Part shown: piece after piece, positions 2,790 through 34,729 of the stretch
How positions within the stretch are numbered: the first letter of the stretch is position 1
Layout: every line of letters starts with the position of its first letter
From: Thraustochytrium sp. TN22
Lineage: Eukaryota > Sar > Bigyra > Thraustochytrida > Thraustochytriidae
Direction: 5' to 3'
DNA: 64,000 bases
Assembly: GCA_013306675.1 (NCBI GenBank)
Contig: JABLUY010000142.1
Coordinates: forward strand, 34,306-98,305
Program-made: the position numbers and the translations under genes
The notes under the pieces: model-generated
What the model was told of the DNA's origin: nothing
The model's database searches: none
What the model saw: the letters and a program-made list of their open reading frames with translations, nothing else

Positions 2790-3005
2790 ATGGCTTGCTG
2801 GAGAAAGATGGCGACGCGGCGCTCGGCGCGCGAGACGTGCGTGGCGCATGGCCGCGCGGGGGGCGGCGCAGCGCAGCGCAGCGCAGAGCCCGTTCGCGCG
2901 CGGGCCGGCGGCCGGCGGCGCTGCGGTGGCTGCGGCTGCGGCTGCGGCCTGGCGGCGGGCCGCGGCGGCGGGCCGCGGCGGCGGGCCGTGGCGGCGGGCG
3001 GCGCC

Positions 3006-4289
3006 ATGGGGCTCGTGCGCGAGCTGAGCAGGTGGCGGTCGGCGCGGGGCGCGCTGGTGCGCGTGTGCGCGGGCAGCATCGTGGACTTCGAGGGCGACGC
3101 CATCGTGAACGCGGCGAACGTGGGCGGCCTGGGCGGCGGCGGCATCGACGGCGCGGTGAACTCGGCCGGCGGCAACGAGCTGCTGTCGGCGCGCCTCAAG
3201 CTGCCGCTCGTGGAGCCCGGCGTGCGAATACCGACGGGCGAGAGCCGCATGACCATCTCAGGCGAGCTGCCGGTCAGGTTCGTCATCCACAGCGTCGGCC
3301 CGTGCTACCCGCTTTTGCGCGACGAGGACCACCGCGAGGAGGACGCCCAGTTGCGCGCCGCCTACAAGTCGGCGCTGGCGCTCGCACACGAGCACAAGCT
3401 GCACCGCATCGGCTTCGCGCTCATTAGCGCAGGGGTCTTCCGCGGCGCGCGCTCGCTGCGGGAGATCCTGGAGGTTTCCTGCCGGGCCATTGACGACGCC
3501 GCCGACGCCCTCGACGAGGTCTCGCTCTGTGCCTACGCCGAGGAGGAGCAGGTTGCGCTGCAAAAGGTCGCGGCCGCAGTCTTTCTGCCGGACAAGACCA
3601 AGATGATGCGCACCGGCCCGGGCCCATCCTCCCCCGCGACTGACGCCTCCGCGTCCGGCGCCAAGGGCGCGGTGTCCGCCTCGGCGTCGACACCGTCGGC
3701 GTCTGCATCGTCGGCGTCCGCGTCGGCACCGGCACCGGCACCGGCACCGACACCAACGCCGGCGGCCGCCAAGAGCCAATCAGGCACGGCGACCGCCAAC
3801 GGGACGCATGCAAAAGTTTCCGAGCTGCCGGCCTCGCAAGAATCCGTGGTCGACTCGCAGCCGGCCTCGCAAGAATCCGTGGTCGACTCGCAGCCGGCCT
3901 CGCAAGAATCCGTGGTCGACTCGCAGCCGGCCTCGCAAGAATCCATGGTCGACTCGCAGCCGGCCTCGCAAAACTTCGTGGTCGACTCGCAGTTGCCGGC
4001 CTCGCAAGAATCCGTGGTTGACTCGCAGTTGCCGGCCTCGCAAGAATCCGTGGTCGACTCGCAGTTGCCGGCCTCGCAGGAGTCCTCACAGGGTTTGGCC
4101 GACACGCAGCCGGCCTCGCCCGGACCGGAGGAGGAGGACAAGAAGGAGGGGGGCGGGTGCGCCTCCGACTCGCTCACGGCAACGCCCGTGAGAGCGCCGG
4201 CCATGCCCTTGGCTGACGCCGCGGACGAGGCCGAGGCGCCCGAGCCCGCACCAATGGATGACGACGAGCCCAAGAAATCATCATCATGA
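3006..4289 (+). CDS. Macro-domain (ADP-ribose-binding) protein with SQ-rich repeat tail
   Basis: Probably binds or hydrolyses ADP-ribose on proteins; 427 residues from this ATG (context gccATGG). An in-frame ATG at 2790 would add 72 Arg/Gly/Cys-rich residues that look compositional, so I prefer 3006. The macro domain covers about residues 15-195: a DAIVNAAN motif followed by LGGGGIDGAV is the MacroD-type signature. The second binding loop, usually STG(V/I)xGYP, here reads SAGVFRGAR, so hydrolase activity is uncertain. Residues ~200-270 are Ala/Ser/Pro low complexity. From ~275 there are eight 11-12-residue units of the form PASQESVVDSQ, giving 16 SQ and one TQ dipeptides in about 100 residues, resembling the SQ/TQ cluster domains targeted by ATM/ATR-type kinases. 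The tail ends in an acidic stretch. A nuclear DNA-damage role is inference. Confidence 0.85.
   Translation: MGLVRELSRWRSARGALVRVCAGSIVDFEGDAIVNAANVGGLGGGGIDGAVNSAGGNELLSARLKLPLVEPGVRIPTGESRMTISGELPVRFVIHSVGPCYPLLRDEDHREEDAQLRAAYKSALALAHEHKLHRIGFALISAGVFRGARSLREILEVSCRAIDDAADALDEVSLCAYAEEEQVALQKVAAAVFLPDKTKMMRTGPGPSSPATDASASGAKGAVSASASTPSASASSASASAPAPAPAPTPTPAAAKSQSGTATANGTHAKVSELPASQESVVDSQPASQESVVDSQPASQESVVDSQPASQESMVDSQPASQNFVVDSQLPASQESVVDSQLPASQESVVDSQLPASQESSQGLADTQPASPGPEEEDKKEGGGCASDSLTATPVRAPAMPLADAADEAEAPEPAPMDDDEPKKSSS
3825..4110 (+). repeat. 33/36-bp coding minisatellite in the macro-domain gene
   Basis: Eight in-frame units. The first four are 33 bp and the later ones 36 bp, with an added Leu codon. 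Units are nearly identical at DNA level, so copy number may vary between alleles. Confidence 0.9.
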
Positions 4290-4469: not shown

Positions 4470-5225
4470 TCAGATGACCGGCACGCGGTCGTAGGCGACG
4501 CTCTCGGTGCCAGTCCACCAGCGCTCGAACTCGTCGTAGCTGAGTGTGCCGGTGAAGTCCGTGTCGAGGAACTCAAAAATCGCGACCAGCTCGCTGGCAG
4601 TAAAGTCCGTGCCAAGCTCCTTGCAGCAGGCCGCGAGCTCGGGAATGGACAACGAGCCAGAGTTGTCCTTGTCGTACCGGTTGAAGACCTGCCGCACGTA
4701 CACCAGGTCGTCCGTATGGCTCTGTACAACGCGGTCGTGCAGTTCCGTCAGCTTTCGTGTCGCCACGCGCGACACGATCACGCATGAGACGCCGCACGCG
4801 AGCAGCAGTGCGCCGCACAGGTAGCCGAAAAAGCCCGCCAGCGAGAGGTGCAGGCCGCCTGCCAGCATATAAAACAGGCCGCGGCCCCAGACACGCGTCA
4901 GCAGTTTGAGCCACACGTTGATCCACGACTTGAGCGCGCCAAAGTACATGTGGTTGAACTCCAGCAACACGCCCAGAAACGCAATCGTCGCGGCGTACAG
5001 CGTCATAAGGAACGCCACCGGGTGCAGCTCGAAGAAGTCTGCGATCAGCGCGAAGGCGTCCAGGCCGATCGCCAGGCACCCGCTCACCACGCACGCGCCC
5101 TTGAGCGGCACCGGGCCCTTGGTGATCCGGTCCTTGATGTACTCCAGCCGCGTCCGCACCTCCACGCTGTCGCCCAGCAGCGTCGCGCTGCGGCCCTCGT
5201 TGTTCACCGCCTCCAGGTCGTCCAT
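4470..5225 (-). CDS. Four-helix membrane protein with two EF-hands (COPI-associated/TVP15-like)
   Basis: A 251-residue integral membrane protein, starting at an ATG in ATGG context. Four hydrophobic segments lie at about residues 43-64, 70-88, 114-133 and 135-153. The loop with LEFNH and YFGALKSW and the helix GLFYMLAGGL resemble the COPI-associated/TVP15 family of Golgi membrane proteins; this assignment is from memory and moderate. After a cytosolic helix come two canonical calcium-binding loops, DKDNSGSLSIPE (185-196) and DTDFTGTLSYDE (221-232). It is therefore likely a calcium-responsive protein of the secretory pathway. It is convergent with the macro-domain gene, with 180 bp between them. 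Confidence 0.75.
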   Translation of the reverse strand: MDDLEAVNNEGRSATLLGDSVEVRTRLEYIKDRITKGPVPLKGACVVSGCLAIGLDAFALIADFFELHPVAFLMTLYAATIAFLGVLLEFNHMYFGALKSWINVWLKLLTRVWGRGLFYMLAGGLHLSLAGFFGYLCGALLLACGVSCVIVSRVATRKLTELHDRVVQSHTDDLVYVRQVFNRYDKDNSGSLSIPELAACCKELGTDFTASELVAIFEFLDTDFTGTLSYDEFERWWTGTESVAYDRVPVI

Positions 5226-6057: not shown

Positions 6058-6076
6058 TCATGGCTGACAAAGCTCG
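5871..6076. repeat. Two tandem 100-bp units overlapping a stop codon
   Basis: Both units begin caggtcgcga (5871 and 5971) and share blocks such as ttggatggaaagat and ggtaccactc. The second unit contains the stop codon of the next gene (6058-6060), so the 3' end and untranslated region of that gene were duplicated. Confidence 0.8.
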
Positions 6077-7980
6077 GCCGGAGGGACAGGAGCAAGCGGA
6101 CGCTGCGGGCCGAGCACGTCGATGACCGCAGCGGCAAAGACGGCGGGCGCGGGGTCCTGCAAATAAACGACCGGGAGGCCAGGCGTGCAGAGCTCGCCGA
6201 AGCGGCGAAACATGCGCGGGGAGACTGGACGAACGGCGAAGACGACCATGGCTGGAATCGGTCGCAGCTTTCGGTCGCTCTGAATGTGCTGGCGCAAGAG
6301 GTCGGCGGCGGCCTCCAAGTCGCCCCCAGACGAGCTGGCGTCGCCCAAAAGAACGGATCCTGGCACGGTGTGGAGCACGATGGACGTCGCTATGGAGACG
6401 TTTGGGTGAAGCGGGCGCACGAGTTCCGCGTCGAGACGCTCGAGCGGCCACACCTTGGCCGTCTGCGCGTCAGCGAGGAAGATGACCTGCAAGCCTGCCG
6501 GGTGGCCTTGCGTCTCCGGATAGACCAGCTCACAGTACTTCTCGCGCAGTGAGCCTTCTCGCAAAGAGGGCGTGCCGACGCAGAGACACACGTTCATATT
6601 GTCGCAGGCGAGCATATCGCCATTGGCGAGCGACACTGCGGCGAGGATGCCAGAGACGCCCAGGACAGCGGCCGCGCTGGTCAGGCTGAGAATGGTTCTT
6701 GCGCTCATCTTGCTGAGCTCGCCTCGCACGTCCATGCCGCGGACGACCGTCTCATAGAGTGTACAGACGAGGTCGGCAATAAATTCGCCCACAATCATGC
6801 CGAGCGACAGGAGGAAGTGAGCACGGATATCCGACTCGCCGCGCAGCAGGCTCCCCTCGTTGGCTTCAAACGGGTAGCGCAACGAGCCACCTCCCTGAAA
6901 GAGCGGGATGAGGAACATGGCGGCCAGGATACCCATGTATTCGCCCAGCATCTCCGACAGCAGCAGCATGGTGCTGGCTTCTTCGCTCGACGCCGGCGGC
7001 GAAAAGCCGGGAGCGAGCAATTTACTAACTGTAAGGCGCGCCGATGCGGCGGACCTCGCGTCTGCCTCGGACTCGCTAGGCCGCACCTTGTACGAGTTCG
7101 CAAAGGACCGCAAGGCAGCCATGTGGTCGGTGATATTGAGGCAGCGCATGATGGCGGCATCCCGACGATCGATGGTCAGTCGCATGAGGATCTCAAAAAT
7201 CGTCATGGCAAAGATCGTGAGAGTGCCAAGCCGCACGTCGTCGATGCTCGCCGCGAGGAGGCGCGAGAGGCCAGCCAGGATCATCTGCACCATGAGCGCG
7301 GGCACCAGCGCGTAGGCGCGGCAGATGCGAATCTCCTTGTGAGCAAGCCAGTCGGACGACATGACGATACGTACAATAATTCGGATTGGGAGAGTCGTGA
7401 GCTCCTTGGTGAGCGGGAGAATGACGATGGACAATAGCAGGCGGGCTTTTTGGGTCTCACGTGAGAGCAGCGACATGAAAACGAGGCTGAGCTCGGCGAC
7501 GATGAAACACAACCAGAGCAAAAAGGCCAGCACGTGCACTCGCGCGCCCTTGGGCAGCGCCAGCCGGCAGATCACAATCATGGAGATGTAGGGCATCTGC
7601 GAGAGGCTCAGGGCCAGCTCGGGCGAACGGCTGGTGGTGTAGAAGGTGCACCCAAGCCAGATCGCGAAGACGGCTGCAGCAATCGCTGGGCCGTGCTGCA
7701 CCCTGGCGACCAGCAAGATGGTAAGCGGCGTCAGGAGCATCGCGTAGACGGGGATGAGGTCTCGCAAGAGAATATCGTCGAGGAGGACGTTGCCGTAAGG
7801 CTCGGGCCGTCTCAGCACGTACGACATGTGCTCTTCAACGTTGATGCCCGCATTGCTGAGAGGGGCGAACTTGATCCACGCAGCAGCGAGGAGGCCCACG
7901 CACGTGCCCGGCACGGCGCTGAGGAAGATTCTCGCCACGAGTGCTGCGGCCTGTGCAGCGCACTTTACGCGAGCTGCCAT
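6058..7980 (-). CDS. Polytopic membrane protein, tandem family copy 1
   Basis: 640 residues, family unknown to me; first of four tandem paralogues. The start ATG coincides with the conserved N-terminus of the family. About 11 hydrophobic segments fill residues 10-465. Family hallmarks are RRPEPYGNVLLDDILL near residue 57, an amphipathic TKELTTLPIRIIVRI segment, EASTMLLLSEMLGEYMGI, and SLGMIVGEFIADLVCTLYE. A variable Ser/Ala-rich loop lies near 300-335. The last membrane span (GVSGILAAVSLANG) is followed by a soluble domain with a Cys cluster (NMNVCLCVGT, then SLREKYC) and the block GLQVIFLADA. The protein ends in a Pro-Pro-x-x-x-Cys motif (PPAELCQP). An alpha/beta-like C-terminal domain on the far side of the membrane is inference. 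No catalytic motif is recognised; transporter, receptor or enzyme all remain possible. Confidence 0.85.
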   Translation of the reverse strand: MAARVKCAAQAAALVARIFLSAVPGTCVGLLAAAWIKFAPLSNAGINVEEHMSYVLRRPEPYGNVLLDDILLRDLIPVYAMLLTPLTILLVARVQHGPAIAAAVFAIWLGCTFYTTSRSPELALSLSQMPYISMIVICRLALPKGARVHVLAFLLWLCFIVAELSLVFMSLLSRETQKARLLLSIVILPLTKELTTLPIRIIVRIVMSSDWLAHKEIRICRAYALVPALMVQMILAGLSRLLAASIDDVRLGTLTIFAMTIFEILMRLTIDRRDAAIMRCLNITDHMAALRSFANSYKVRPSESEADARSAASARLTVSKLLAPGFSPPASSEEASTMLLLSEMLGEYMGILAAMFLIPLFQGGGSLRYPFEANEGSLLRGESDIRAHFLLSLGMIVGEFIADLVCTLYETVVRGMDVRGELSKMSARTILSLTSAAAVLGVSGILAAVSLANGDMLACDNMNVCLCVGTPSLREGSLREKYCELVYPETQGHPAGLQVIFLADAQTAKVWPLERLDAELVRPLHPNVSIATSIVLHTVPGSVLLGDASSSGGDLEAAADLLRQHIQSDRKLRPIPAMVVFAVRPVSPRMFRRFGELCTPGLPVVYLQDPAPAVFAAAVIDVLGPQRPLAPVPPAELCQP

Positions 7981-8540
7981 TTGCGCATGGCGTTCTGCCC
8001 AGAGCCACGGAAGCTAGGTTTCCCCACCACGAGCCGTTGCAGGGACGTTGGTGACCTCGTCACTCACTGGTGCCCCCACCCCTCCCTCTGAGGCAGCCTT
8101 CCTGCGGATTGTCATTGCAACAGGCGGGTCAAGTTGCCACAGGGGTGAGAACAAGGCGCGCACAAGGGACTCGGTCCCTCGGGGAGAGAGAAGGGGGGGA
8201 GGGGAAAGCCTCGCACGGCGCCGCACGCAAGAGAGAAACAACGTGGATCGCGTCAATTGCGCTGCTGATCAGCAGCTTCCGCCCAGCAAAACAAAAGGAA
8301 GCAAAAATGAAACTAGGCACAAAGCGAGGCAGGCTGCTGGCAAGCTGCTGGCTGTGGCACACGCGACTCAGCCAGTGAGGCTTTCGTACTATCTCACTCG
8401 CTCTCATGCGCAGCTGACCGTTGGTATGAAGGTGGTCAGGCGTGGCCTCGAAAAAAAAAAAAGATCGTAACGGAACTTGCCTTGTTTCATTTCGTCAGCA
8501 CTCGGTGCTGACCGTCGTGTGAGTGTTTATGATAGCATTT
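7981..8540. other. Intergenic spacer between family copies 1 and 2
   Basis: 560 bp holding the promoter of copy 1 and the 3' region of copy 2. It contains a 12-A run near 8451 and no gene-like frame. Confidence 0.6.
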
Positions 8541-10616
8541 TCACTGCATGTCCGGACATAATTCTGAAGGAAGCGTAGGCCCAAATGGGCGATCTGGGCC
8601 GAGTACCTCGAAAACGGCGGCGGCCAAGGTTGCAGCCGTCGGGTCTTGTAAGTACACGATGGGCAAGTCATCCATGCAGAGCTCGCCAATGCGGCGGTAC
8701 ATGCGTGGTGGCTCCGGGCGAACGACGAAAAGGGCCATAGCAGGCAAAGGCTGCAGCTTGGAATCGCTCTGCATGTGCGCCCTAACGACTGCGGCAGACG
8801 CCTCCAAGGCCTCTTCCGAAGTGTCGTCCTCGAGAGGGAGCATCCCGGGTACCGTATGCAATACAATGGAGGTCGCGATTGACACGTTCGGATGTAACGT
8901 GCGCACGAGCTCCTCTTCGAGGCGCCTGAGGGGCCAGATGTCGGCGGTCTGCGCATCGGCAAGGAAGATTGCCTGCAAACCCGAGGGGTAGCCATCCGTG
9001 TTGGGGTAGATCAGGTCGCAGTACTGGTCCCGCAGCGAACCCACGCGCAGGGAGTGCGTGCCAACGCACAGACACATGTTCATGTGATCGCATACGAGCT
9101 GGTCGCCATTGGCAAGGGAAACTGCGGAGAGAATTCCTGAGACACCAAACACAGCAGCCACACCCGAAAATCCGACGACACTCCGAAAGCTCATGCTGTG
9201 CAGCTGGTCACGCACGTCAATCGCTCGGAATACCCTCTCGTAGAGCGTGCAGACGAGGTCCGCGATGAACTCGCCAAATATCATGCCGAGCGAAACGTAA
9301 AAGTGACCTCGGAAGGAGGTCTCGCCACGTAGAAGGCTGCCCTCGTTTGCCTCCATCGGGTAGCGCAGAGTATTGGCCCCGCTGAAGAGTGGGACGAGAA
9401 ACATGGCCGCCAAGATACCCATGTACTCGCCCATCATCTCAGACAGCAGCAACATTGCGCTGGCCTCGGTGCTCGACGCCGGTGGTGGGAAGCTGGGAAT
9501 CATCGCCTTGGCCAGTCGCCCGGCAGCCGCGCCCGGAGACGTCGGCGTGGATGCCTCGGATGCCGCCGAGCTTGCCGCCGAGCTTACCGCCGAGCTTAAC
9601 GCACGCACTTTGTTCGAGCGACCAAAGGAGCGCCTCATGGTAATTCCGTCGGAGAGGTGCAAGCAGCGCATGACGGCCGCATCGCGATGTTCGATACTGA
9701 GGCGCATCAAGATCTCAAAGATCGTCATGGCCACGATGGTGAGTGTGCTCAGCATCACGCCATCGACGCTTGCGGCGATGAGGCGCGACAGTCCAGCCAG
9801 GATCATTTGCACGACGAGAGCTGGAATAAGGGCGTAGGATTGGTAGATGCGGAGCTCCTCATGCAAGAGCCAGTCCGAAGACACGATGATACGGACGAGG
9901 AGCCGAATAGGTAGCGTGGTCAGCTCCCTGCTCACGGGTAAGATCACGATCGAGAGCAGGATGCGATCTCTCTGCGTTGCGCGCGACATACTTGACATCA
10001 CCAATAAGCAAACCTCTGCCAGGGCGAAGCATACCCATAGCAAGAGTGCCAGCACGTGTACCTTGGACCCTTTGGGCAGCGCGACGCGGCACAGCACGAT
10101 CATCGCGACAAAGGACGCCTGCGAGAGCGGCAGCGAGAGAGCCGGGAAATAGTTGGCACCGAGGTAGACGCTGACAATCCAGATGACGATAATTGCAAGC
10201 GAAATGTGCGGGCCGCGCCTTGTTCGCACCGCCAAGAAGACGGCGAGTGGAAGGAGAAGGAGAGAATACCCTGGAATGAAGTCCCTCATGAGGATTTCGT
10301 CCAGCAGCACGTTGCCGTACGGCTCGGGCCGTCGCAGCACCATCGTCATGTGCTTCGACACGTCCAGATCCATTCTGCTGAGCGGCGCGAACCTGACCCA
10401 CACCGCTGCCAGCAGGCCAAAGAACGTGCCGGGCAATGCATAGCAGAAGAGCTGGGCCACGAGCGCGGCGGTTTGCGCCACGCTCGCCAGGCCGCCGGCC
10501 ATCTGGCGGAGCGCGAAAGCGCTTGTGGACGATTTGCCGGCCGGTCCCGGTTCGCCGTGGCGACGGCGCTCCGGAGCGGCTTTTCGAGTCCTCACTTCCG
10601 TTACCAAGGACATCAT
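8541..10616 (-). CDS. Polytopic membrane protein, tandem family copy 2
   Basis: 691 residues from ATG 10616; an internal ATG at 10502 matches the start of copy 1 and would give 653. It keeps all family blocks: RRPEPYGNVLLDEILM, ATQRDRILLSIVILPVSREL, SEMMGEYMGILAA, SLGMIFGEFIADLVCTLYE, and the C-terminal NMCLCVGT...YCDLIYP...GLQAIFLADA. The end, LPSELCPDMQ, keeps the terminal Cys. Its variable loop (~residues 335-375) is Ser/Ala-rich. It is visibly most like copy 3, which suggests the more recent duplication. The extra N-terminal ~38 residues are basic and polar with no signal peptide, so the first hydrophobic segment would act as a signal anchor. Function unknown. Confidence 0.85.
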   Translation of the reverse strand: MMSLVTEVRTRKAAPERRRHGEPGPAGKSSTSAFALRQMAGGLASVAQTAALVAQLFCYALPGTFFGLLAAVWVRFAPLSRMDLDVSKHMTMVLRRPEPYGNVLLDEILMRDFIPGYSLLLLPLAVFLAVRTRRGPHISLAIIVIWIVSVYLGANYFPALSLPLSQASFVAMIVLCRVALPKGSKVHVLALLLWVCFALAEVCLLVMSSMSRATQRDRILLSIVILPVSRELTTLPIRLLVRIIVSSDWLLHEELRIYQSYALIPALVVQMILAGLSRLIAASVDGVMLSTLTIVAMTIFEILMRLSIEHRDAAVMRCLHLSDGITMRRSFGRSNKVRALSSAVSSAASSAASEASTPTSPGAAAGRLAKAMIPSFPPPASSTEASAMLLLSEMMGEYMGILAAMFLVPLFSGANTLRYPMEANEGSLLRGETSFRGHFYVSLGMIFGEFIADLVCTLYERVFRAIDVRDQLHSMSFRSVVGFSGVAAVFGVSGILSAVSLANGDQLVCDHMNMCLCVGTHSLRVGSLRDQYCDLIYPNTDGYPSGLQAIFLADAQTADIWPLRRLEEELVRTLHPNVSIATSIVLHTVPGMLPLEDDTSEEALEASAAVVRAHMQSDSKLQPLPAMALFVVRPEPPRMYRRIGELCMDDLPIVYLQDPTAATLAAAVFEVLGPDRPFGPTLPSELCPDMQ

Positions 10617-11068
10617 GGCGCGGCGTCGACAGCAGTAAGTAAACTTGAGCTAGAAGATGGGGGCGGTGCGGTGCGGTGCGCGCCACCGCGGCACCGCCCG
10701 CACCAGAGTTTTTTGGTAGCAAATTAAAAATAACGCCAGCCTGCACTGCAGCCAGCAGGGGCTTATGCAGCCCGCCCCAGCAGCGGCTCGCGATCGTTAC
10801 CGCCGTCCTGAAGCTCGGAATGGCGGACGGCTTTCCATTCGAAGCAAAAGCGAGACTTGGTCCTTACGAGGCCATGCAGTCGGAGCCGAGCCGCCGGGTG
10901 CGACAGCCGCCGGTCGCACCCGGCGGATTTGACTCGTGCATGGTGGTCGTTCTTCACAGCAGGAAACCAACGTGTAACGACTTTTGCGCGTACCAGGGTA
11001 CCGGTACCAATTTTTTCTTTTTTAGTTCGCACTCACTGTCAGGCCGCCAGTGCATAATAACGGTCTCC
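10617..11068. other. Intergenic spacer between family copies 2 and 3
   Basis: About 450 bp. It includes a palindromic ggtaccggtacc element near 10998 and a short T-rich stretch; no gene is seen. Confidence 0.6.
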
Positions 11069-13039
11069 TCATCGCGCCTCGCCGTACGTCCCGTTCCACT
11101 CTGGGCACAGATCTGAGGGATGGAGAGGCGCCAAGGGGCGGCCTGGACCGAGCAGCTCGGCAGCTGCGGCGGCAAAGGTACTAGCGGCCGGATCTTGCAA
11201 ATAGATGACCGGGAGCTCGCCCGTGCAGAGCTCGCCAAAGCGACGATACATGCGAGGCGGCTCCGGCCGAACGACGAAAATAGCCATGGCAGGAAAGGGC
11301 AAGATCTTGAAGTCGCCCTGCACGCGGGCCCGAACGACCGCGGCGGATGCCTCCAAGTCTTCCTGCCCGGCGTCATTGTCCAGGTGAACTGTGCCTGGTA
11401 CGGTGTGAAGCACGATCGAGGTCGCAATGGAAATGTTCGGATGCTGCGGGCGCACGAGCTCTGCGTCGAGGCGCTTCAGGGGCCAGACATCGGCAGCGTT
11501 CGCATCGGCGAGAAAAATGGCCTGCAAACCTGAGGGGAAGCCATCTGACTCGGGGTAGACCAGGTCACAGTACTGGTTGCGCAGAGACCCCTCGCGCTGG
11601 GAAGGTGTGCCTACGCAGTAACACATGTTCATGTGGCTGCACGCGAGCTGATCACCGTTGGCGAGCGCGACCGAATTAAGGATTCCCGAGACGCCCCAAG
11701 CCGCGGCCACGCTAGTAAATATGAGCATTGTGCCGATGCTCATGCCTCGCAGCTGGCCGCGCACATCAATACCGCGCACCACCGTCTCGTAGAGCGTGCA
11801 GACGAGGTCCGCGATGAACTCGCCAAAGATCATCCCGAGCGACATGTAGACGTGCCCGAAAAGTCCGGTCTCGCCGCGCAGGAGGCTCCCCTCGTTTGAT
11901 TCCATCGGGTAGCGCAGGGTGTTGGGCCCACGAAAGAGTGGGACGAGAACCAGGGCGGCCAGGATGCCCATGTACTCGCCCATCATCTCGGACAGCAGTA
12001 GCATTGCACTGGCCTCGGAGCTCGAGGCGGGAGAATTGAAGCTGGGAAGTACCACCTTGGCCAGACGCTCGGCAGCCGAGGCTGGGGAAGTTGGCAGTGA
12101 TCCATCGGGCTTCTCATCCGCGGACGCCTCCGAGCTCCCTGCATGCACCTTTTTTGTTGCGTATTTACCCCGCACGGAGATCATGTCGGAGAGCCGCAGG
12201 CACCGCATGAGTGCCGCATCGCGATGCTCGACGCTCAGGCGCATCACGATCTCAAAAAGCGTCATGGAGAGGATGGTGAGCGTGCTGAGCAGCGCACCCG
12301 CGAGACTTGCAGCAATCAGGCGAGACATCCCAGCCATGCACATCTGCACAACGAGAGCCGGAACGAGCGCGTAGGTGTGATAGATGCGCAACTTCTTGTG
12401 CATCAGCCATTGTGAGGAGAGCATGATGCGCACGAGCAGCCGGATGGGAATTGTAATGACCTCCTTACTCACGGGCAAGATCACGACCGAGAGCAGGATG
12501 CGATCTCGCTGCGTTGCGCGCGACATGGCCGACATGAGCAGAAAGCAACCCATGGCCAGCGCGAAGCAGGTCCAGACCAGAAAGGCAACGACGTGAACCT
12601 TAGAACCCTTGGGCAGCGCGACGCGGCAGAGCACGATCGTCGCGATGAAAGGCACTTGCATGAGGATCAACGTGAGCTCGGGGAGGTAGTTCGTGCCCAC
12701 TTCGCTGCTGATCAACCAGATCACGATGATTGCCAGCGCTATTTGAGGCCCGCGTCGTGAACGCACTGCAAGGAGAACGCCGAGCGGTATGAGCGCCAGA
12801 GACTTCGACGGAATGAGCTCTCCGAGGAGGATATCGTCCAACAGCGCGTTCCCGTACGGCTCTGGCGGTCGCAACACGACCGTCATATGCCTCGCTACGT
12901 CCACATCTAGGTTTGTCAGAGGGGCGAACCTCGTCCACGCCGCAGCCAGCATGCCAATCAGCGTGCCGGGCACCGCATAGCAGAATAGCTTGAAGACGAG
13001 CGCGGCGGTTTGCGCCACGTCCTCCACGCCGCCTCTCAT
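11069..13039 (-). CDS. Polytopic membrane protein, tandem family copy 3
   Basis: 656 residues. The frame is open back to 13219, but that codon is TTG; the ATG at 13039 (protein start MRGGVEDVAQTAALV) aligns with the starts of copies 1 and 2, so I chose it. Family blocks are intact: RPPEPYGNALLDDILL, ATQRDRILLSVVILPVSKE, SEMMGEYMGILAALVL, SLGMIFGEFIADLVCTLYE, and C-terminal NMCYCVGT...YCDLVYP...GLQAIFLADA. The final blocks are HPSDLCPEW plus a short extension. The variable loop (~300-340) carries Ser, Lys and Pro. Function unknown; membrane topology as for the neighbours. Confidence 0.85.
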   Translation of the reverse strand: MRGGVEDVAQTAALVFKLFCYAVPGTLIGMLAAAWTRFAPLTNLDVDVARHMTVVLRPPEPYGNALLDDILLGELIPSKSLALIPLGVLLAVRSRRGPQIALAIIVIWLISSEVGTNYLPELTLILMQVPFIATIVLCRVALPKGSKVHVVAFLVWTCFALAMGCFLLMSAMSRATQRDRILLSVVILPVSKEVITIPIRLLVRIMLSSQWLMHKKLRIYHTYALVPALVVQMCMAGMSRLIAASLAGALLSTLTILSMTLFEIVMRLSVEHRDAALMRCLRLSDMISVRGKYATKKVHAGSSEASADEKPDGSLPTSPASAAERLAKVVLPSFNSPASSSEASAMLLLSEMMGEYMGILAALVLVPLFRGPNTLRYPMESNEGSLLRGETGLFGHVYMSLGMIFGEFIADLVCTLYETVVRGIDVRGQLRGMSIGTMLIFTSVAAAWGVSGILNSVALANGDQLACSHMNMCYCVGTPSQREGSLRNQYCDLVYPESDGFPSGLQAIFLADANAADVWPLKRLDAELVRPQHPNISIATSIVLHTVPGTVHLDNDAGQEDLEASAAVVRARVQGDFKILPFPAMAIFVVRPEPPRMYRRFGELCTGELPVIYLQDPAASTFAAAAAELLGPGRPLAPLHPSDLCPEWNGTYGEAR

Positions 13040-13494
13040 CTGGCGATCGGCCCAGCTGGTTTGCTTGCGGCTGCGCGGGTGCCCAGCTTGCTTTCTGGCC
13101 AAAGCCGTTGCAAGAGGCGGGGCGCCCTGCTCGGGCCTGCTGCATGCACTGCCTGAGGAGGTGCCATTCGTTAATGGCGATGCACTGCTGCGGGGGCGCC
13201 GCCGCTTCGGACCGGGCAATCTGCCCTGTTACTTGCTGCTACTTGAGGACTCCGGCTCCTTGAGCGACACCGCAAAAGGAGCAGAGAATGAACTGCCTTC
13301 GCCAGAAAGCACACGGTCTCACTGTCTCTCACAGTCAGACGAACCAGCCACTCGAAGCTTGCTCTGCATTCTCGTCGACGGCTCGGCGGGTGAAACCGTT
13401 ACAGAAATGGAACTTTTGTTTTACGAGGCTCCGAGTCAGGCAGGCTGCGGTTGCTCCGAGCCTCCGACTCCAGGCCTGGCTAGCTGAGGTAGGC

Positions 13495-15477
13495 TCATGG
13501 TCGCTGCTGGCACACTGCCTCCGGGAGGATGGGACCCGAACCATAGCCAGCCAGGACTTGCTGCGTCGCAGCCGAAAAGGTCTCGCTGGTCGGGTTCTGG
13601 AGATACAATACGGGCATGCGGTCATCCTCGTCCGAGCAAACTTCACCGTCCGCGTTCCGGACGATCGATGGCAAGGTGTCATCGACCTGCCCGAGGACGA
13701 AAATAGCCATGGCTCCTGGAAAGCGCTTGAAGGTAGTGTCTGTAAGCACGGCCTCTCGAATTAGAGCGCTCGAGCTCGTCCAGTTGCCGTCTCGGGCACT
13801 TGGCACCGAGGCCCAGGTGATTAGTGTTGCAAGGGACACGTTCGGGTGAAGAGGAGCGATGAGGTCCGATGTGATCCCGTTTGCCGTCCAGCCTCGAAAC
13901 GGCCTGGCTTCCTGGAGGACGACGACTTGCAGGCCGGATGGCAGGCCGTTGGTGCTGGGATACAACATCTCGCAGTGTGTCTCGCGGAGTGATCCCGGGC
14001 GAATCGATGATGTGCCCATGCAGTAGCATAGGTTCATGCCAGTGCAGCCCACCAGGGTGCCATTGGCGAAATTCGTGCCCAAGATGATGCCGCTCACGCC
14101 AATAATGGAGGCCGTTGCAACGTAAACGACCACCGTGCGCTTCTTTTGCCAGCGCCAGAACCGCTCGACTGGCATGCCACGCACAAAGGTCTCGTACAGG
14201 GTGCATAAGAAGTCGGTGAGGAGCTCGCCAGCGAACATGCCCAGACTCACGCATACATGGCGAACCCAATCGAAAGAGGCTGCGCTAGTGTGCATGTCAA
14301 AAGCCGCGAAGGGAAAGCTCAGGGACATTGGCTGGAAGATAATCACCAGCATTGTGGCTGCCAGGATGCCCATGAGCTCGCCGAGCATTTCCGCCACGAG
14401 TAGCATTGTGCTCGCCTCGTCGGCGGTACGCAGCCGGTCCTGGTGCGCCTTGCGCCCAGACCCGAGCGAAAAGCTCCAGTTTGCCGGGAGAACCTGAGAG
14501 GAGCGCACGAGCGTGTGCATCTCCTTAAAGCACGGCAAAATTGCGCTGCCGACTCGCAAGAGCATGTCATCTCGCCAGTCTATGCTCAGCCGCACGCTGA
14601 TCTCCACAAACATCATCCCAATGATGGAGATCACGTTGAGGCGCCAGTCATCAATGCCCACGGCCAGGAGCCGGGCAATACCTGACATAATCATGAGCGT
14701 GAGGAGGGGGAACACCATCGCGTAGGAGGCGCGCACTGCAACGCACGAGTGCTCGAGCCAGTTTGAAGCCACCAACGAGCGTACCAGCATGCGCATGGGC
14801 AGGTTCGCCACTTCCCTGCCGAGGGGTAGCACAAGTACTGAAATGAGCATACGCTCACCCGCCGTATCACTCGGCAGTTTGGCGCAGATCAATACAGTGC
14901 CCAGCGCGGCCGTGAAGAATACCCAAATGAGCAGGGCCACGACCCACACCTTGCAGTCGCTCGGTAAAAATACACGCAGACACACCACCGCGAGGATGAA
15001 AGGACCCTGGGAGAACACGAGCTTGAATTGCGGGAGCACCTCGAGTGCGAGGTAGACGCACAAAACTCCGCTCACGAAGACGAGGGCCATTGTGGGTAAA
15101 TATACCGAGCGTGGCAATTTCACCACCATGAAAAGGTACGCAGGGCACATGATGATGGCATTCAATGGCAACATATCTGAGAGCAGGAAGCGGTCCATGA
15201 CGGCATTTCCGAATGGCTCTGGCCGCCGCAAAATGAGTGCGTCCAACAGACCCTGATTCGCTTCTCGTCGGAGCGGCGCAAACCGCACCCAGAGCGCAAT
15301 AAGAAGGCCGAAACATCCTGCCAGCGAGAAAGCGTACACCCCGAGCACGACCCTCAGCGATGACACCACTGCCGCGCGCGTCGGCAGCGCGAGCTGCATG
15401 ATCGCCGCCGGTGAGCTCAAAGTGGCTCTGCTGCCTGGTGACGCATAGGCTGGCTTTTTTTTGCTCACACCTTGCAT
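13495..15477 (-). CDS. Polytopic membrane protein, tandem family copy 4 (most divergent)
   Basis: 660 residues from ATG 15477. It is the outermost and most divergent member of the array. Conserved blocks survive in altered form: RRPEPFGNAVMDRFLL, an AGERMLISVLVLPLGREVANLPMRMLVRS-like helix, STMLLVAEMLGELMGILAA, SLGMFAGELLTDFLCTLYE and GVSGIILG. The soluble tail has MNLCYCMGT, ETHCEMLYP and GLQVVVLQEA, and ends LPEAVCQQRP. The C-terminal domain carries an extra acidic stretch (VCSDEDDRM). The retained Cys positions and the terminal Cys argue for a structural disulfide domain shared by all four proteins. It is divergent from the EF-hand gene to its right. Confidence 0.85.
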   Translation of the reverse strand: MQGVSKKKPAYASPGSRATLSSPAAIMQLALPTRAAVVSSLRVVLGVYAFSLAGCFGLLIALWVRFAPLRREANQGLLDALILRRPEPFGNAVMDRFLLSDMLPLNAIIMCPAYLFMVVKLPRSVYLPTMALVFVSGVLCVYLALEVLPQFKLVFSQGPFILAVVCLRVFLPSDCKVWVVALLIWVFFTAALGTVLICAKLPSDTAGERMLISVLVLPLGREVANLPMRMLVRSLVASNWLEHSCVAVRASYAMVFPLLTLMIMSGIARLLAVGIDDWRLNVISIIGMMFVEISVRLSIDWRDDMLLRVGSAILPCFKEMHTLVRSSQVLPANWSFSLGSGRKAHQDRLRTADEASTMLLVAEMLGELMGILAATMLVIIFQPMSLSFPFAAFDMHTSAASFDWVRHVCVSLGMFAGELLTDFLCTLYETFVRGMPVERFWRWQKKRTVVVYVATASIIGVSGIILGTNFANGTLVGCTGMNLCYCMGTSSIRPGSLRETHCEMLYPSTNGLPSGLQVVVLQEARPFRGWTANGITSDLIAPLHPNVSLATLITWASVPSARDGNWTSSSALIREAVLTDTTFKRFPGAMAIFVLGQVDDTLPSIVRNADGEVCSDEDDRMPVLYLQNPTSETFSAATQQVLAGYGSGPILPEAVCQQRP

Positions 15478-21811: not shown

Positions 21812-24800
21812 TTACACATCATCGTCGTCGATCTCAATGTCCTCGGCAACCTGGTAGGCGCGCCACATGGGGCCGAGATTGACGCTGCGGTGGTCCGAGG
21901 CCGGCGGCACAATACGGTCCGGGATAGAAGGTGGCAGGCCGCGGCCAAACGGATTGAAGCGCGCCGAGGTGGCGGAGCGATGCGCAGCCGCCGCGCCAGC
22001 GGGTGTCGGGACGGCCGACTGAGGCGCAATGCGACCGCCGCCGGCCTGCGAGGAGATCTGCGAGGCCTCCTCATACTGGCCGAGCGCAGCGCCGCCGCGC
22101 AGCTTGCGCGCACGCATCTTGTGGAAGAGGTTTACCTTGTAGTAGTAGCACATGACGAAGAGCGCGCGCAAGACGCGGCTGAGAACCACAAAGGCGAGCT
22201 GCAAGGCGAAATTGCTCCCAGCGATGACGAGCAGCCCGATGATCATGACAAAGTCAGCGCCGAGCACCAGCACAGACAGAAAGTCCTGACGCGAGATCCA
22301 GACAATGGACTGGCGCCTGCCGGTGCCGGAGAGCGGCACGAGGAAGCAGATCTGCACGAGAAACTGGGCGATGTAGACGCAAAAGAAGACGAAGTTGAGG
22401 GCAACAAAGGCCGGGTCCGCGTCCTGGAACTCGAATGAGGTGAGCGCAACCGTGGTGTTGGCGACGCCGTTGATGGTGATGCTGCCGTCATCGTTCCCGG
22501 TCACCAGGACCTCGCCCTCATTGAAGGAGCAGAGCGTGCTGGCGAAGAAAAAGTCGAGGACGAGGAAGACCGTGATCGTCTGACGGCTGAGAAGCGTGGA
22601 GAGGACCCAACCGCGCGATCCGGTGGAAGACTCGGCGTTGTCCGGGCTTTGGGACATGATCTGGTGCAGCGAGCTGCCCGTCTGGTCGCGCTCGAGCGGG
22701 AGGGGCTTGCGGTGATCGTCGGCCTCGTCGTCGTCCGGGCGGCGGTCTGAGGCGGGCGCGCCGCGCTTGAGGTTGTCGGTGCGAAAGACGTAGCGGAAGT
22801 AGAAGGCAAAGTAGGACAGGATGTGGAGCATGAGAACGATGATGAGGAGGGCGAAGATGCAGGTCGTGACGTCGAACTCGTCGAACTCGAACTGGCGCAC
22901 GACGTTGGCGCCGGCGCGCTGTGCGCTCTCCAGCACCGAGATGCCGGGCTCGTCGATGGTCTGGCCGCCGAGCGCGTTGATGAGCACGCCCCCGAAGCTG
23001 TAAAAGGTAATCATCAGGTATGGCAGCCAGCGCAGCGCGGCCGGGATGTCACCGAGGTTGAGGATGAAGCCGTTCAGCACGGCCGAGAGTGCGAGCAGGG
23101 CCATGTTAATGAGGGCTGCCTTGCGCGTGTCGGGCGCGCTGTCGCCGCCGCGCTCGATGATGAATATCTCCACCAAGGTGTTCTGCGAGGTGACGGCCAC
23201 GCTTGTGAGAATCATGAGCTGCACGAAGCGGAAGAAGGTCATCGGGTTGTCGGTGAAGAGGAAGGACATAAAGTACACCGGGACCGCGTAGCAGATGGCC
23301 TCGATGGTGGCCGCGACCATGTTGCGCGAGAAGACGCTGAGCAAAAAGGCCTGGAACGGGATCGTATTGCCGTTGGCGCGTTCAAAGGACCAGACCCCCT
23401 TTTCCAGGTTGTAGCGGTCGCCGAGGAAGACCGAGGCCAAGAACGTGAGCGTGCTCGTGCTCAGGTACGAGAGCGCGATCTGACTCGTGTACGTGTCGCT
23501 GCCGAGGAAGACGAGGCCCACGAGGACGCCGGACACGAGCGCGAAGGACGAGGTGCGCAAGATGTCAAAGCCGCCGCGCTTGATGGTTCGCGAGAGCAGC
23601 ACCCAGTAGGCGGTCATCACGCTGATGGGCTCGGTCCATGACCAGCGGCCGGAAGCCAGCGAGTTCTCGACCAGGACGGACCGGAGCGCGCGCGCCATCT
23701 CCCACGTAAAGTGCGTGCGCTCCGACGCGATGGTCTCGAGCACGCTGCGGCCGAGCGGGCCCGTCTCGTACGTGCGGCGGTACGCCTCGATGCGGTCCTG
23801 CGAGGCGATCTGGAGCTGGTCCAGAATCTCGTCGCCGATGTTGACCTCGTCCAGTGAGACGTGAAAGAAGTCAGCGGCGTCCGCCGGCGAGCCCGAGAAG
23901 ATGACCTTGCCGCGTACCAGGATGGTGACGTCGTCCAGAAGCTGGAAGATCTCGCGGCGAGGCTGGTGGATGGTCATGATCACGTTGACGCCCGCGATGT
24001 GCGCCAGGTTGTGCAGGCTGCGCACCAGCACCAGCGCGTTGGTGCTGTCAAGGCCCGAAGTGGGCTCGTCCAGCAGGAGCGCCGCCGGCATGGACAGCAG
24101 CTGCGTGGCCACCGAGACGCGGCGGCGCTGGCCGCCCGAGATGCCGCCCTCGACCAGCACACCGCCATCGCCACAAATCGTGTCGGCGCAGCCCTGGAGC
24201 TCCAGAAGCTGGATAATCTGCTCGACGCGGCGAAGCTTCTCGTCACCACCGAAGAACTGCGGCAGCTGCAGCCAGGCCGCGTGCTGCAGGTGCTCGCGCA
24301 CCGTAAGGTGCGGGAAGAGCACATCGGTCTGGCGCACGTAGGACGACGAGTTGCGCAACCACTCGCGCAGGAAGGACGCGCGATTCAGGTGCGAGGGCAC
24401 GCCGTTGATGAGGTGCTGGCCAGAGACGCGACCCGACTCGCGCGTATAGGAGATGAGGTCCAGGAGCGTTGACTTGCCGCTCCCAGAAGGGCCCATGAGC
24501 GCGTGCACCTGGCCCGGCTGAAAGGCGACGCTCACCTTGTCCAGAATACGCACCTGCGGCGCCGACCGCTTCTTGCTGGGCGCCCAATACGAGAGCTTGC
24601 TCACCATGAGCTGGATGGACCGGCCCTTGTTGGCGCGCCGCGCCTCGCGAAGCACGAGGCGCTCCGCGTCGCGGCCCGAGGCGTCCAAAGACCCGTGCTC
24701 CTCGTGCTCGCGCGCCTCTGCTTGCCGAAAGGCACGGCGGCGCATGTCAAAGATCAGGACGCGCAGCCGCATGAGGATGAAGGCGAGCCAGCCGGAGCCG

Positions 24801-26341
24801 ACCACAAAGAACACGTAAAAGGACACGAGCGAGGCCTGGCATGGCGACGTGTGGGCCTCGAGCGCCAGCTCCACGACCGTGGTGGGACACGCCTTGTTGC
24901 AGAGAAACTCCGAGCATACGTCGGCCACCAGGCCGTCCACGGCGGCCAGCGCGCCCATGGTGCCGTTCAGCACCCAGCGCTCGACCGCGCTGCTCGCCGC
25001 GAGGCCGCCGACCGTGACCGTCTCCCACTCGGCGCCGGTGCGCTCGTACACGACCGAGCCGGCCTGACCTATGCGCTCCGTGCGCGCTGTCTCCGTGGTG
25101 AGCGCCGCGATGGGCACCACCCACCCGTGCTGGCCGCACCCAGGGCTCCACATCTCGTGGAGCGGGCTGCTTGGCATGAGCCGCCGCCCTTGGGTCGCCA
25201 CTTCCTCGAACTCCTGCCGCATGCCAATGCCGTAGCCCTTGATATAGGAGAGTACGGCCTGCGAATAAGCCGCGTCGTCGATGTACGTGCTGGCCGCCTC
25301 GCTGTCCGCGATGCCGAGCTCCAGCAGCTGCGCCAGGTCGTACTGGCTCTGCAGCACCAGCGTTGGGACGTCCTGAAAGACATCCAGGCCCAGCAGGTTC
25401 GACACGTAAAGGCACTCGTGCGGGTAGCCGGAAGGCGCGTACGCGTCGATGCAGTCCTGGGCCAGCTCCGCGGCGCTCAGCCACTGCGCCGACTTGGTCT
25501 TGAGCGCGTGGTCGAACTGATATGAGACCGCCTCGTCAGTGTAGTTGCGCACGGCGAACTGCCGCTGGCTCAGCATCCACGCTGAATCCAGAATGAGCCG
25601 CGTATCGTACGCGTCGCCCGTCACGTCGCCCGCCGCCAGCCGCGTCGCGAGATGCGCCGCGCCAACGCCACCGCCGCGCGTGCCGCCCACGATGACCTTG
25701 CTCGTGCTTGTCAGGCCATGGCTCAAAGCCAGGTCCGCGAAGACCGCGTCGAGCACGTCGGCACCGTGGAACAGCAAGGCACTCCCGCCCGTCACGTCGC
25801 CACGGCCCAGGTGCCAGTCCAGCGTGCACGACGGCACGTACACGCGCGTGGCGTAGCCCAGCGGGCCATCCGCGCACAGCAGCGTCGAGAATCTCGCATC
25901 CACGCGGCTCCACATGCCCGACCCGCACTGGAGCCTGTCATAGTAGCACTCCACGTTGCTCGCGTTGATGGCCGCGGTCCCGTTCACGTCCACCTCCGCC
26001 GCGCCGCACGAGTCGTTCGTCTCGCCCTCGCAGTACGCGTCGCACAGCTCCTCCGTCGCGCACAGCTCGTTGTCCCCCAGCCACACCACGAACGTCTCCG
26101 CGCCCGCGACTTCGTCCACGTAGTACGCGGCGGCCGACCCGTCGGCGCAGACGGCCGGGGCGCCCAGGTCCTTCCTCTCCCCGGCTGCCGAGCTGCACAC
26201 CTCCTGCGCGGCGGCGCCGGCCACCAGCGCCGCCGCCGCGGCGGCAGCCAGCGCCAGCGCCCGCGCCCGCGCCGCGCGCGCCGCGCCTCTGCCCTCGCGC
26301 GCGCGCGCGCCGCGGGACTCATGCACGTGCCGCCCCGCCAT
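21812..26341 (-). CDS. ABCG-type half-transporter fused to a NOTUM/pectin-acetylesterase-like ectodomain
   Basis: 1509 residues from ATG 26341, chosen because it gives a signal peptide (Ala/Leu-rich core ending AAAQEVC); the frame continues to 26809 through low-complexity sequence. Residues ~45-490 resemble the NOTUM/pectin acetylesterase alpha/beta-hydrolase family. The nucleophile motif G-x-S-A-G-G reads GGTRGGGVG (~217), so the Ser is replaced by Arg. A YDLAQL block and an LHEMW block keep the likely Asp and His. A membrane span follows at ~490-515, then an ABC domain: GPSGSGKST (~615), SGGQRRRVS (~731), LLLDEPTSGLDS (~751). An ABC2-type six-helix domain covers ~900-1190. A second four-helix block (~1249-1405) precedes an Ala/Pro-rich tail. 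ABCG proteins export lipids or small molecules; the substrate here is unknown. Confidence 0.85.
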   Translation of the reverse strand: MAGRHVHESRGARAREGRGAARAARARALALAAAAAAALVAGAAAQEVCSSAAGERKDLGAPAVCADGSAAAYYVDEVAGAETFVVWLGDNELCATEELCDAYCEGETNDSCGAAEVDVNGTAAINASNVECYYDRLQCGSGMWSRVDARFSTLLCADGPLGYATRVYVPSCTLDWHLGRGDVTGGSALLFHGADVLDAVFADLALSHGLTSTSKVIVGGTRGGGVGAAHLATRLAAGDVTGDAYDTRLILDSAWMLSQRQFAVRNYTDEAVSYQFDHALKTKSAQWLSAAELAQDCIDAYAPSGYPHECLYVSNLLGLDVFQDVPTLVLQSQYDLAQLLELGIADSEAASTYIDDAAYSQAVLSYIKGYGIGMRQEFEEVATQGRRLMPSSPLHEMWSPGCGQHGWVVPIAALTTETARTERIGQAGSVVYERTGAEWETVTVGGLAASSAVERWVLNGTMGALAAVDGLVADVCSEFLCNKACPTTVVELALEAHTSPCQASLVSFYVFFVVGSGWLAFILMRLRVLIFDMRRRAFRQAEAREHEEHGSLDASGRDAERLVLREARRANKGRSIQLMVSKLSYWAPSKKRSAPQVRILDKVSVAFQPGQVHALMGPSGSGKSTLLDLISYTRESGRVSGQHLINGVPSHLNRASFLREWLRNSSSYVRQTDVLFPHLTVREHLQHAAWLQLPQFFGGDEKLRRVEQIIQLLELQGCADTICGDGGVLVEGGISGGQRRRVSVATQLLSMPAALLLDEPTSGLDSTNALVLVRSLHNLAHIAGVNVIMTIHQPRREIFQLLDDVTILVRGKVIFSGSPADAADFFHVSLDEVNIGDEILDQLQIASQDRIEAYRRTYETGPLGRSVLETIASERTHFTWEMARALRSVLVENSLASGRWSWTEPISVMTAYWVLLSRTIKRGGFDILRTSSFALVSGVLVGLVFLGSDTYTSQIALSYLSTSTLTFLASVFLGDRYNLEKGVWSFERANGNTIPFQAFLLSVFSRNMVAATIEAICYAVPVYFMSFLFTDNPMTFFRFVQLMILTSVAVTSQNTLVEIFIIERGGDSAPDTRKAALINMALLALSAVLNGFILNLGDIPAALRWLPYLMITFYSFGGVLINALGGQTIDEPGISVLESAQRAGANVVRQFEFDEFDVTTCIFALLIIVLMLHILSYFAFYFRYVFRTDNLKRGAPASDRRPDDDEADDHRKPLPLERDQTGSSLHQIMSQSPDNAESSTGSRGWVLSTLLSRQTITVFLVLDFFFASTLCSFNEGEVLVTGNDDGSITINGVANTTVALTSFEFQDADPAFVALNFVFFCVYIAQFLVQICFLVPLSGTGRRQSIVWISRQDFLSVLVLGADFVMIIGLLVIAGSNFALQLAFVVLSRVLRALFVMCYYYKVNLFHKMRARKLRGGAALGQYEEASQISSQAGGGRIAPQSAVPTPAGAAAAHRSATSARFNPFGRGLPPSIPDRIVPPASDHRSVNLGPMWRAYQVAEDIEIDDDDV

Positions 26342-27193
26342 CGTAATGCCGCGCTGCGCCATGCCGCGCTGCGCCATGCCGGAGCGCGCGAGCGCGCGAG
26401 CGCGCGAGCGCGCGAGCGAGCGAGCGCGCGAGCGAGCGGGGTCGCCGCCGCCGCGCCGCGAGCGAACGGGGTCTGCGGCGCTTCGCTCCGCGCGGGCGCC
26501 GCCGCCGCTCGCGCGCGCGCTCGCGCTCGCGCGCTTGGTCCCGTCCAGAGCCCTAAGGCACCGGGGGGCGCGCGGCGCGTCTGCGCGGGCGCCGGCGGAT
26601 CCGCGCTGCCCAGGCCCCGCGGCGCCGCAGCGAGGGAGATCCGCCGTCGCGGTGGGATTCTGCCGAGACACGCGCTGGGCCCCCTGGGGAAGTACGGGCT
26701 GGGCTCCGCGCGCCAGGCTCGAGCTCATGTCCATGTCAGGCTTCAACTGCCACAGCTCGCCGAGGCGATGCACCGCGACAAACACCACTGCCAGTGCAGC
26801 AGCAGGCACGTGACAGACCGTCGCCGCTCAGGAGGGCGGCCTTTTTAGGAGAGCGCTTGCCGGCGCGCGCTTGCGCGACGCTGTGGATCTGTACCGCCCA
26901 CCAGCCTGAGGGGTTCTACTACTAGCCAGCTAGCTAGAGTCACCACTGCATGGTCAGCCACAACACCGCGGGCGTGCCACTGCAATAGTGGCTCGGCCAC
27001 GGCAGTGTCGGCAGTGCAAGGCCCGACGAGACCGACGAGCCGGGCCACTGCACTGCTGCAGACTGCAGACTGCAGCTGCAGTGCCAGTGGCAGTACCGTG
27101 ACGGCCCACTGGCAGCGGGCGGCCTTCACCTTCACTGCGGGCAGGTGATGACCGTAAGTCGAGGCCATTCGTCGTCACGGATACTTCTCTTGA
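26342..27193. other. Intergenic region upstream of ABCG
   Basis: About 850 bp. The first ~470 bp keep the ABCG frame open but code only for Arg/Ala-rich sequence, including GCGCGAGC repeats. Further on are a CTAG run (26922-26939) and a patch of repeated ctgcag and cagtg words (27053-27115). No gene is seen. Confidence 0.55.
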
Positions 27194-28711: not shown

Positions 28712-28858
28712 CGCGGTGTGGTCGCCGCCGCACAGGCCAGGCCGACCACCGCGGCGCACGCGGCCGGGCTCGGAGTTCGTGGTTTGGTTTGGCTTTTGGA
28801 TGACATGGTCCGAGTCCGCGCGCGGCCTGCATAACGCCAAGACTCCTACGAGCTTGCA

Positions 28859-28915
<57 letters not shown>

Positions 28916-28927
28916 CGGCGCGGCGCC
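28712..28927. promoter_or_regulatory. Compact bidirectional promoter with CGG repeat
   Basis: Only 216 bp separate the ATGs of the EDR2_C gene (minus) and the PDZ gene (plus), so promoters must overlap. The plus-strand side is a GCG run of about 16 units (28861-28909) ending 19 bp before the PDZ gene ATG. Confidence 0.6.
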
Positions 28928-29848: not shown

Positions 29849-30107
29849 CACCCTCCTGCGAACCCGTCCACCACACCCTGACGAGTACGTACCATCTGTG
29901 TAACAAGAGGAGACTTGAAAGGTCTGTGCCTGATTTTGTCTCGAGATCAAGTCATGTAAAGCCGTGATACCAGGATTTTCTTTTTCGTTTCCATAATGAT
30001 GTGGCTTCCTCGTCGCTTCCTGCACTCCGTGCACCGCCGAGAAAAGGTCTTTTTTATCAGAGAGCAACTTGTCATTCCGCTTGCACAAAGCTCGCCGACT
30101 ACAACAG

Positions 30108-31577: not shown

Positions 31578-31921
31578 CCTCGCCTCGCCAGGCCACGCCG
31601 GCCCGCGGCTCGCGTGCGCGCCGCCTTCGCCTTCACCACCTGCCGCCGCCTGCCGCCGCCTGCCGCCGCCTGCCGCCGCCGCCCTCGCTTTCGCCGCTGC
31701 TCTCGCTCGCGGCGCGCCGGTTTGACTCCAAGGGGGTTTGATGTCTCATGGCCCCAACCTAACGACCAACGACGGCGGCGACTCGAACCTGAAGACAGAC
31801 TCGGATTGAAGCACAGCGAGCGAGGCGAGGCGAGGCAAGGCGAGGCGAGGCGAAACGAGGCGAGGCGAGGCAGAGCGATCAATTCATTCTCAACACGGTG
31901 CTGCTCTGGACACGTTTTTAA
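31578..31921. other. Intergenic region with two short tandem repeats
   Basis: A 10-bp unit (tgccgccgcc) occurs four to five times at about 31635-31682, and gaggc pentamers run at about 31816-31871. It separates the POLD2 start from the ankyrin/TPR stop. Confidence 0.7.
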
Positions 31922-34628: not shown

Positions 34629-34729
34629 GAGATAGAACAAGTAGGCCTAGGAGACGCAATGATATTTTCTGAAAAAGATCACACTGGGGCTTCATCTTTT
34701 TACAAACCATGATAGAGTTCACTTCACAT

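Follow-up and report, generated by a model that had tools for sequence, protein, structure and literature searches.

Polytopic membrane proteins with carboxylates inside the membrane are already known as a broad kind. In anoctamins (TMEM16), which have a ten-helix fold, the Ca2+ site is made by carboxylates in several late helices, OSCA proteins have about 11 membrane helices, and CAX exchangers carry intramembrane acidic residues. Protists commonly have membrane protein families specific to their lineage. The genome of Thraustochytrium sp. TN22, a member of a lipid-rich lineage grown industrially for omega-3 oil, hosts a family of polytopic proteins which is likely undescribed, as judged by comparison with profile libraries, PDB sequences, and viral and prokaryotic contigs. 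Four of its genes reside in the window, the whole 64,000-nucleotide stretch of DNA analyzed here.

The four genes (g1 to g4, Table 1) are adjacent, share one strand, and encode homologous proteins, as the sequence-only reading had claimed. None of the frames contains internal stops. Measured over aligned positions, protein identity is 62% for g1-g2, 61% for g1-g3 and 69% for g2-g3. Gene g4, the most divergent member of the array in the tree, is 36–38% identical to the other three (38% to g1). The g3 frame opens with TTG, and translation probably starts at the in-frame ATG found at residue 61 (about position 13039), giving 656 residues. Residues are numbered throughout on the 691-residue g2 frame. 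Most of the sequence blocks listed earlier, LP(L/V)(S/T/G)(K/R)E, SLGMxxGExxxDxxCTLYE, GVSGI, CxC, GLQxxxL and the C-terminal Cys, are found in all four proteins; RRPEP(Y/F)GN and SEMxGExMGI are also present, the first changed to RPPEPYGN in g3, the second to AEMLGELMGI in g4. The motifs P-x2-[KR]-E-x6-[RK], [ED]-M-x2-E, E-x3-D-x2-C-x3-E and C-x5-C-x-C are all found in every array protein; since the set co-occurs in only 4 of the 190 stop-to-stop frames of at least 150 codons in the window, its sharing is not due to chance. Shared promoters were sought in the regions upstream of g1–g4 (455–584 bases), which have in common only words of 10–14 bases.

Table 1. Genes of the array and conserved features of the encoded proteins (features located in g2; fractions refer to family members)
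Feature	Position in the window	Strand	Description
g1	6058-7980	minus	640 aa; open frame
g2	8541-10616	minus	691 aa; open frame; second in-frame ATG at residue 39, giving 653 aa
g3	11069-13219	minus	716-aa frame from TTG; open frame
g4	13495-15477	minus	660 aa; open frame
TM6 motif P227..E231	9924-9938	minus (g2)	P and E 11/11; residue 230 K/R 11/11
TM8 motif E301-x3-R305, then R311	9702-9716	minus (g2)	11/11
TM9 motif E393-M-x2-E397	9426-9440	minus (g2)	M394 and E397 11/11; E393 10/11, D in one
TM10 stripe E449-x3-D453-x2-C456-x3-E460	9237-9272	minus (g2)	11/11
Cys module C509-x5-C-x-C-x15-C533	9018-9092	minus (g2)	supposed extracellular
Alpha/beta ectodomain, ~140 residues	8544-8984	minus (g2)	sequon N577; two further Cys

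The array is part of a family of 11 genes, identified by using six members as queries against the 37.9-Mb assembly (453 contigs) at E<=0.001; the counts are lower bounds. One single search recovers all 11 genes, and the six combined yield no twelfth. Seven genes reside outside the array, on five contigs: C413, C108 and C222 carry a single gene each, C33 and C353 a tandem pair each. Their N-termini correspond to calls of the ORF tool and are provisional. The sequence-only reading had overlooked these distant members. Local expansion is not special to the window locus: besides the family's tandem pairs on C33 and C353, the genome has three anoctamin genes in succession. In the tree, g1–g4 and the C413 gene (long forms) are split from six short forms by a branch with support 99/98, and C222 sits on a long branch. 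Long and short halves are only 16–22% identical in the core; they find each other at an hhalign probability of 99.9, which served as positive control. The C222 gene features a candidate GT-AG intron of 99 bases. With the proposed intron removed its end reads ...CVPPVKNLHGQYCLRIYPNTSGFPPDLL, keeps the fourth Cys of the module described below and fits the family better.

A hydropathy script marks 10–13 hydrophobic segments in each of the 11 proteins. When the list is read by eye, all eleven helix positions are occupied in g1, g2, g4 and one gene of the C353 pair (C353_b), and 8–10 of the eleven in the other seven members, one gene of the C33 pair (C33_a) being the poorest. If the N-terminus is placed inside, K+R residues make 216 of 1205 positions in the supposed cytosolic loops vs 95 of 1130 in the other loops. 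Summed over the loops the bias is clear, but single loops may show little of it or the opposite: K+R number 24 of 136 residues in loop 5, placed outside, and 30 of 253 in loop 0, placed inside. Because the bias holds in sum and fails in some loops, we infer, rather than assign, a topology of about 11 membrane helices with a cytosolic N-terminus and a C-terminus outside or in a lumen. No internal repeat was found in the six segment pairs compared. A full-length structure model based on the four array proteins reached a pLDDT of 38 and is unusable.

Eighteen aligned columns are invariant across the 11 members, in an alignment in which C222 was taken unspliced. In addition to the motifs of TM6, TM8, TM9 and TM10 in Table 1 (E393 excepted), L267 and R278 of TM7 and P420 are found in all members, and C509, C515, C517 and, in this unspliced reading, C533 complete the set. 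The four invariant residues of TM10 lie on one helix face (p about 0.006), as do the conserved P, E and R of TM6 (p about 0.018); the same test is not significant for TM7, TM8 and TM9 (p 0.32, 0.29 and 0.17), all values being per helix and uncorrected. Membrane stretches were delimited by hand on hydropathy and shortened by 3 residues on both sides, so that E460 falls outside them. Within these hand-set limits conserved carboxylates occur in several membrane helices: acidic residues are shared by 3 or more of the 11 members at the conserved positions 231, 301, 393, 397, 449 and 453 and at the variable position 309, and nowhere in TM1–5, TM7 or TM11.

These features are best accommodated, with a probability of roughly one in three, by a carrier or channel which would conduct cations along a carboxylate-lined path closed by a disulphide cap. 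With the topology given above and a suitable packing of the helices, E231 of TM6, E301 of TM8, E393 and E397 of TM9, and E449, D453 and E460 of TM10 would form the cation-binding path, the carboxylates sitting in the middle of the membrane or towards its cytosolic side. The bound cation might be Ca2+, another divalent metal or H+; the direction of the presumed transport and its substrate are conjectural. A module with two putative disulphides would cap the path on the outer side, the ectodomain of the long forms (the array and the C413 gene) would sit on the cap, perhaps binding a partner or ligand, and the variable Ser-rich TM8-TM9 loop might be a cytosolic regulatory part. In favor of this reading count the hydropathy and summed charge bias, the acidic positions gathered in TM6, TM8, TM9 and TM10, the one-sided faces of TM10 and TM6, the sequons of the ectodomains, and the persistence of the invariants in halves only 16–22% identical. 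Several points weaken it. Transporter and channel families gave no significant match, the faces of TM8 and TM9 do not reach significance, the full-length model lends no support, and E460 and E301 are located near the cytosolic ends of their helices. Basic residues that are invariant or nearly so (R278, R305, R311 and R238), with K/R230, could pair with the carboxylates and neutralize them, making the network a structural one.

Regions of g1–g3 evolve at different rates. From the N-terminus to TM8 identity is 56–69% and pN/pS 0.37–0.43; the TM8-TM9 loop, supposedly cytosolic, is the fastest region (42–52%, 0.61–0.78). TM9-TM11 are 71–76% identical (pN/pS 0.24–0.30), the Cys module 67–74% (0.29–0.36), and the ectodomain 64–68% (0.29–0.36). 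Whole-protein pN/pS is 0.35–0.41. Nei-Gojobori estimates, near saturation, are dS 0.87–1.38 and dN 0.21–0.31 among g1–g3, with dN/dS of about 0.20–0.24, and dS 1.52–1.88 between these genes and g4. The duplications are old and the array is under purifying selection; its frames are intact, and the absence of decay remarked earlier holds.

The Cys module follows the last helix and has the family-wide form C-x5-C-x-C-x(11–17)-C. Its first three Cys (509, 515 and 517) are present in 11/11 members; the fourth is present in all ten unspliced members, and in C222 after the proposed intron. The ectodomain downstream is restricted to one clade, made by g1–g4 and C413 (5 of the 11 members as read), a limit which also had escaped the sequence-only reading, and each of the five ectodomains contains a sequon. 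An AlphaFold2 model of the ectodomain fragment (pLDDT 61, pTM 0.64) has a best Foldseek E of 0.07 against PDB, and finds nothing at E<=0.001 among viral models. A module conserved in 11 members, an ectodomain gained by one clade and a variable Ser-rich loop are also what a sensing or adhesion receptor might display, in which module and ectodomain would bind a ligand or surface and the membrane part would relay to the cytosolic loop. This reading is possible, if tentative: within the array TM9-TM11 are more conserved than the ectodomain, 6 of the 11 members as read end without it (downstream exons are possible), and Pfam reveals no receptor or signalling domain. Transport is a better guess than sensing.

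Carboxylates can also be catalytic. The family might be a membrane-embedded enzyme that modifies lipids, glycans or proteins, the carboxylates, and perhaps Cys456, being catalytic or metal-binding; invariant E, D and C residues are close on TM10, TM6, TM8 and TM9 contribute further E residues, and the host, of a lipid-rich lineage, has a PUFA-synthase gene. We regard an enzyme as doubtful, as none of the 18 invariant columns is a His or a Ser, and enzyme families of Pfam and NCBIfam are not matched. The PUFA synthase, an observation in its own right, is of the PfaA type and nearly full-length, in one frame of 3044 residues which scores 2539.7 bits, over a cut-off reached by none of 14 control genomes; a 2083-residue frame adjoins it in opposite direction. 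This gene and the proposed intron of C222 indicate a thraustochytrid host.

The earlier view that the proteins belong to no assigned family was borne out, and the named-family match that could have overturned it did not emerge: Pfam, NCBIfam, PHROGs and PDB sequences gave no significant match. In Pfam, the only match of g1–g4 at E<=10 is that of g2 to DUF1218 (0.034, below its cut-off). Other weak names, each in one or two members, are SpoIIIAC (0.053), CrcB (0.029) and PHROGs of unknown function (from 0.054), and the best PDB sequences for the 11-row profile include ribosomal uS19 at E 1.9. No relative was detected in the viral and bacterial/archaeal genome contigs covered by non-exhaustive scans (four by alignment with one short motif each, another with six exact 8-mers).

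About 11 helices, and carboxylates spread over several late ones, resemble the plan of the anoctamin/OSCA/TMC superfamily, of which the family might be a distant branch, with scramblase or mechanosensitive-channel function and a Ca2+ site made of carboxylates. The proposal is quite improbable. PF04547 (anoctamin/TMEM16) has no match in g1–g4 at E<=10 or in the 11 members at E<=1, and finds five other places in the genome; PF02714 (OSCA/TMEM63) finds seven, and none of these places is among the 11 genes. The hhalign probability is 0.2 against four of the five anoctamin places and 0.4 against the longest frames of four of the seven OSCA places, in a comparison of low power, given that the OSCA-anoctamin control reached only 6.0. 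The weakest reading is one which the sequence-only reading had allowed, selected diversification in an antigenic-type family for cell-surface variation: the copies are in tandem and their C-terminal part is probably exposed, but the idea is very improbable and lacks support, because the duplications are old, dN/dS among g1–g3 is low, and ectodomain and TM1–8 are conserved to a similar degree, with no diversification of the exposed part at region-level resolution.

The carrier or channel reading may be extended to a new eukaryotic superfamily of cation channels or transporters with an eleven-helix fold of its own, a carboxylate path built from four helices and a CxC disulphide cap, which would have originated in labyrinthulomycetes and evolved short and ectodomain forms for a private trait, such as the ectoplasmic net; this is unlikely. 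According to the parts consulted of PMC12221091, candidates for the ectoplasmic net of Aurantiochytrium limacinum are too divergent for assignment. A link to the net is a possible lead only, as nothing in those parts ties these candidates to the genes described here, and the family is not named in the consulted parts of articles retrieved by topic words rather than by sequence, PMC12221091 and PMC7073664 included. Eleven genes with 18 invariant columns and no recognized relatives in the searched libraries make a clean target. Should the family be a new class of ion channels or transporters, it would be relevant to a lineage of industrial use; should it turn out to be only a known family's rapidly evolving branch, the pattern of invariant columns would provide an anchor for recognizing it.

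Compared with known systems, the family resembles anoctamins in being polytopic and in having carboxylates in several late helices, but differs in lacking a profile match, in its motifs, and in the Cys module placed after the last helix. It shares with OSCA/TMEM63 proteins the number of about 11 membrane helices, again with no profile match. As in CAX cation/H+ exchangers, acidic residues are found inside the membrane; the best phmmer match of g2 is CAX1, at an insignificant E of 0.13, but PF01699 (CAX/Na_Ca_ex), which finds 25 places in the genome, matches none of the 11 genes, and the six segment pairs compared revealed no internal repeat. The long-form ectodomain only can be set beside the catalytic domain of adamalysin/ADAM proteins; the HExxH zinc motif of these and other metzincin metallopeptidases is absent, by eye, from the four ectodomain sequences inspected.

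In two members of the 11-gene membrane protein family, the reading frame may be interrupted. In the C222 member the interruption falls within the supposed extracellular cysteine module and may be a short intron; once this is spliced out, the ending resembles that of the remaining family members. In the first of the two C353 members, the N-terminal stretch is matched in a different frame, with a TAA (locus L045), and the change of frame could denote either an intron or a frame break.

Features in the window and elsewhere in the assembly (G000)
Feature	Location	Strand	Remarks
Proposed intron, 99 bases, GT-AG	L010:4711-4809 (C222 member)		inside cysteine module
L045, N-terminal stretch of first C353 member	G000:C353:130875-131258
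Macro-domain protein (PF01661)	window 2790-4289	+	profile match
COPI_assoc domain (PF08507), then EF hands	window 4470-5225	-	profile match; adjoins array
Pectinacetylesterase-like + ABC frame, 1665 aa	window 21812-26809	-	PF03283, PF00005, PF01061 matches
5691-aa open frame	G000:C410 about 25857-39995
Three anoctamin-profile genes, consecutive	L054-L056, G000:C88:125544-136217	one strand	profile match

PASQESVVDSQ-like repeats form the C-terminal tail of the macro-domain protein, and at about 2600-2750 the window has a short tandem repeat whose translation is (LV)n or (ST)n, depending on the strand.

The pectinacetylesterase-like part (E 2e-17) shares its frame with an ABC transporter domain (PF00005) and an ABC-2 membrane domain (PF01061), the predicted product being a fusion of esterase and ABCG-type transporter, an unusual combination. 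The C410 frame, which features several partial matches to the PfaA (PUFA-synthase) profile, all below cut-off, is probably a further large polyketide/fatty-acid-type synthase. The array is not the only local run of membrane protein genes in this genome: three anoctamin-profile genes lie in a row on contig C88.
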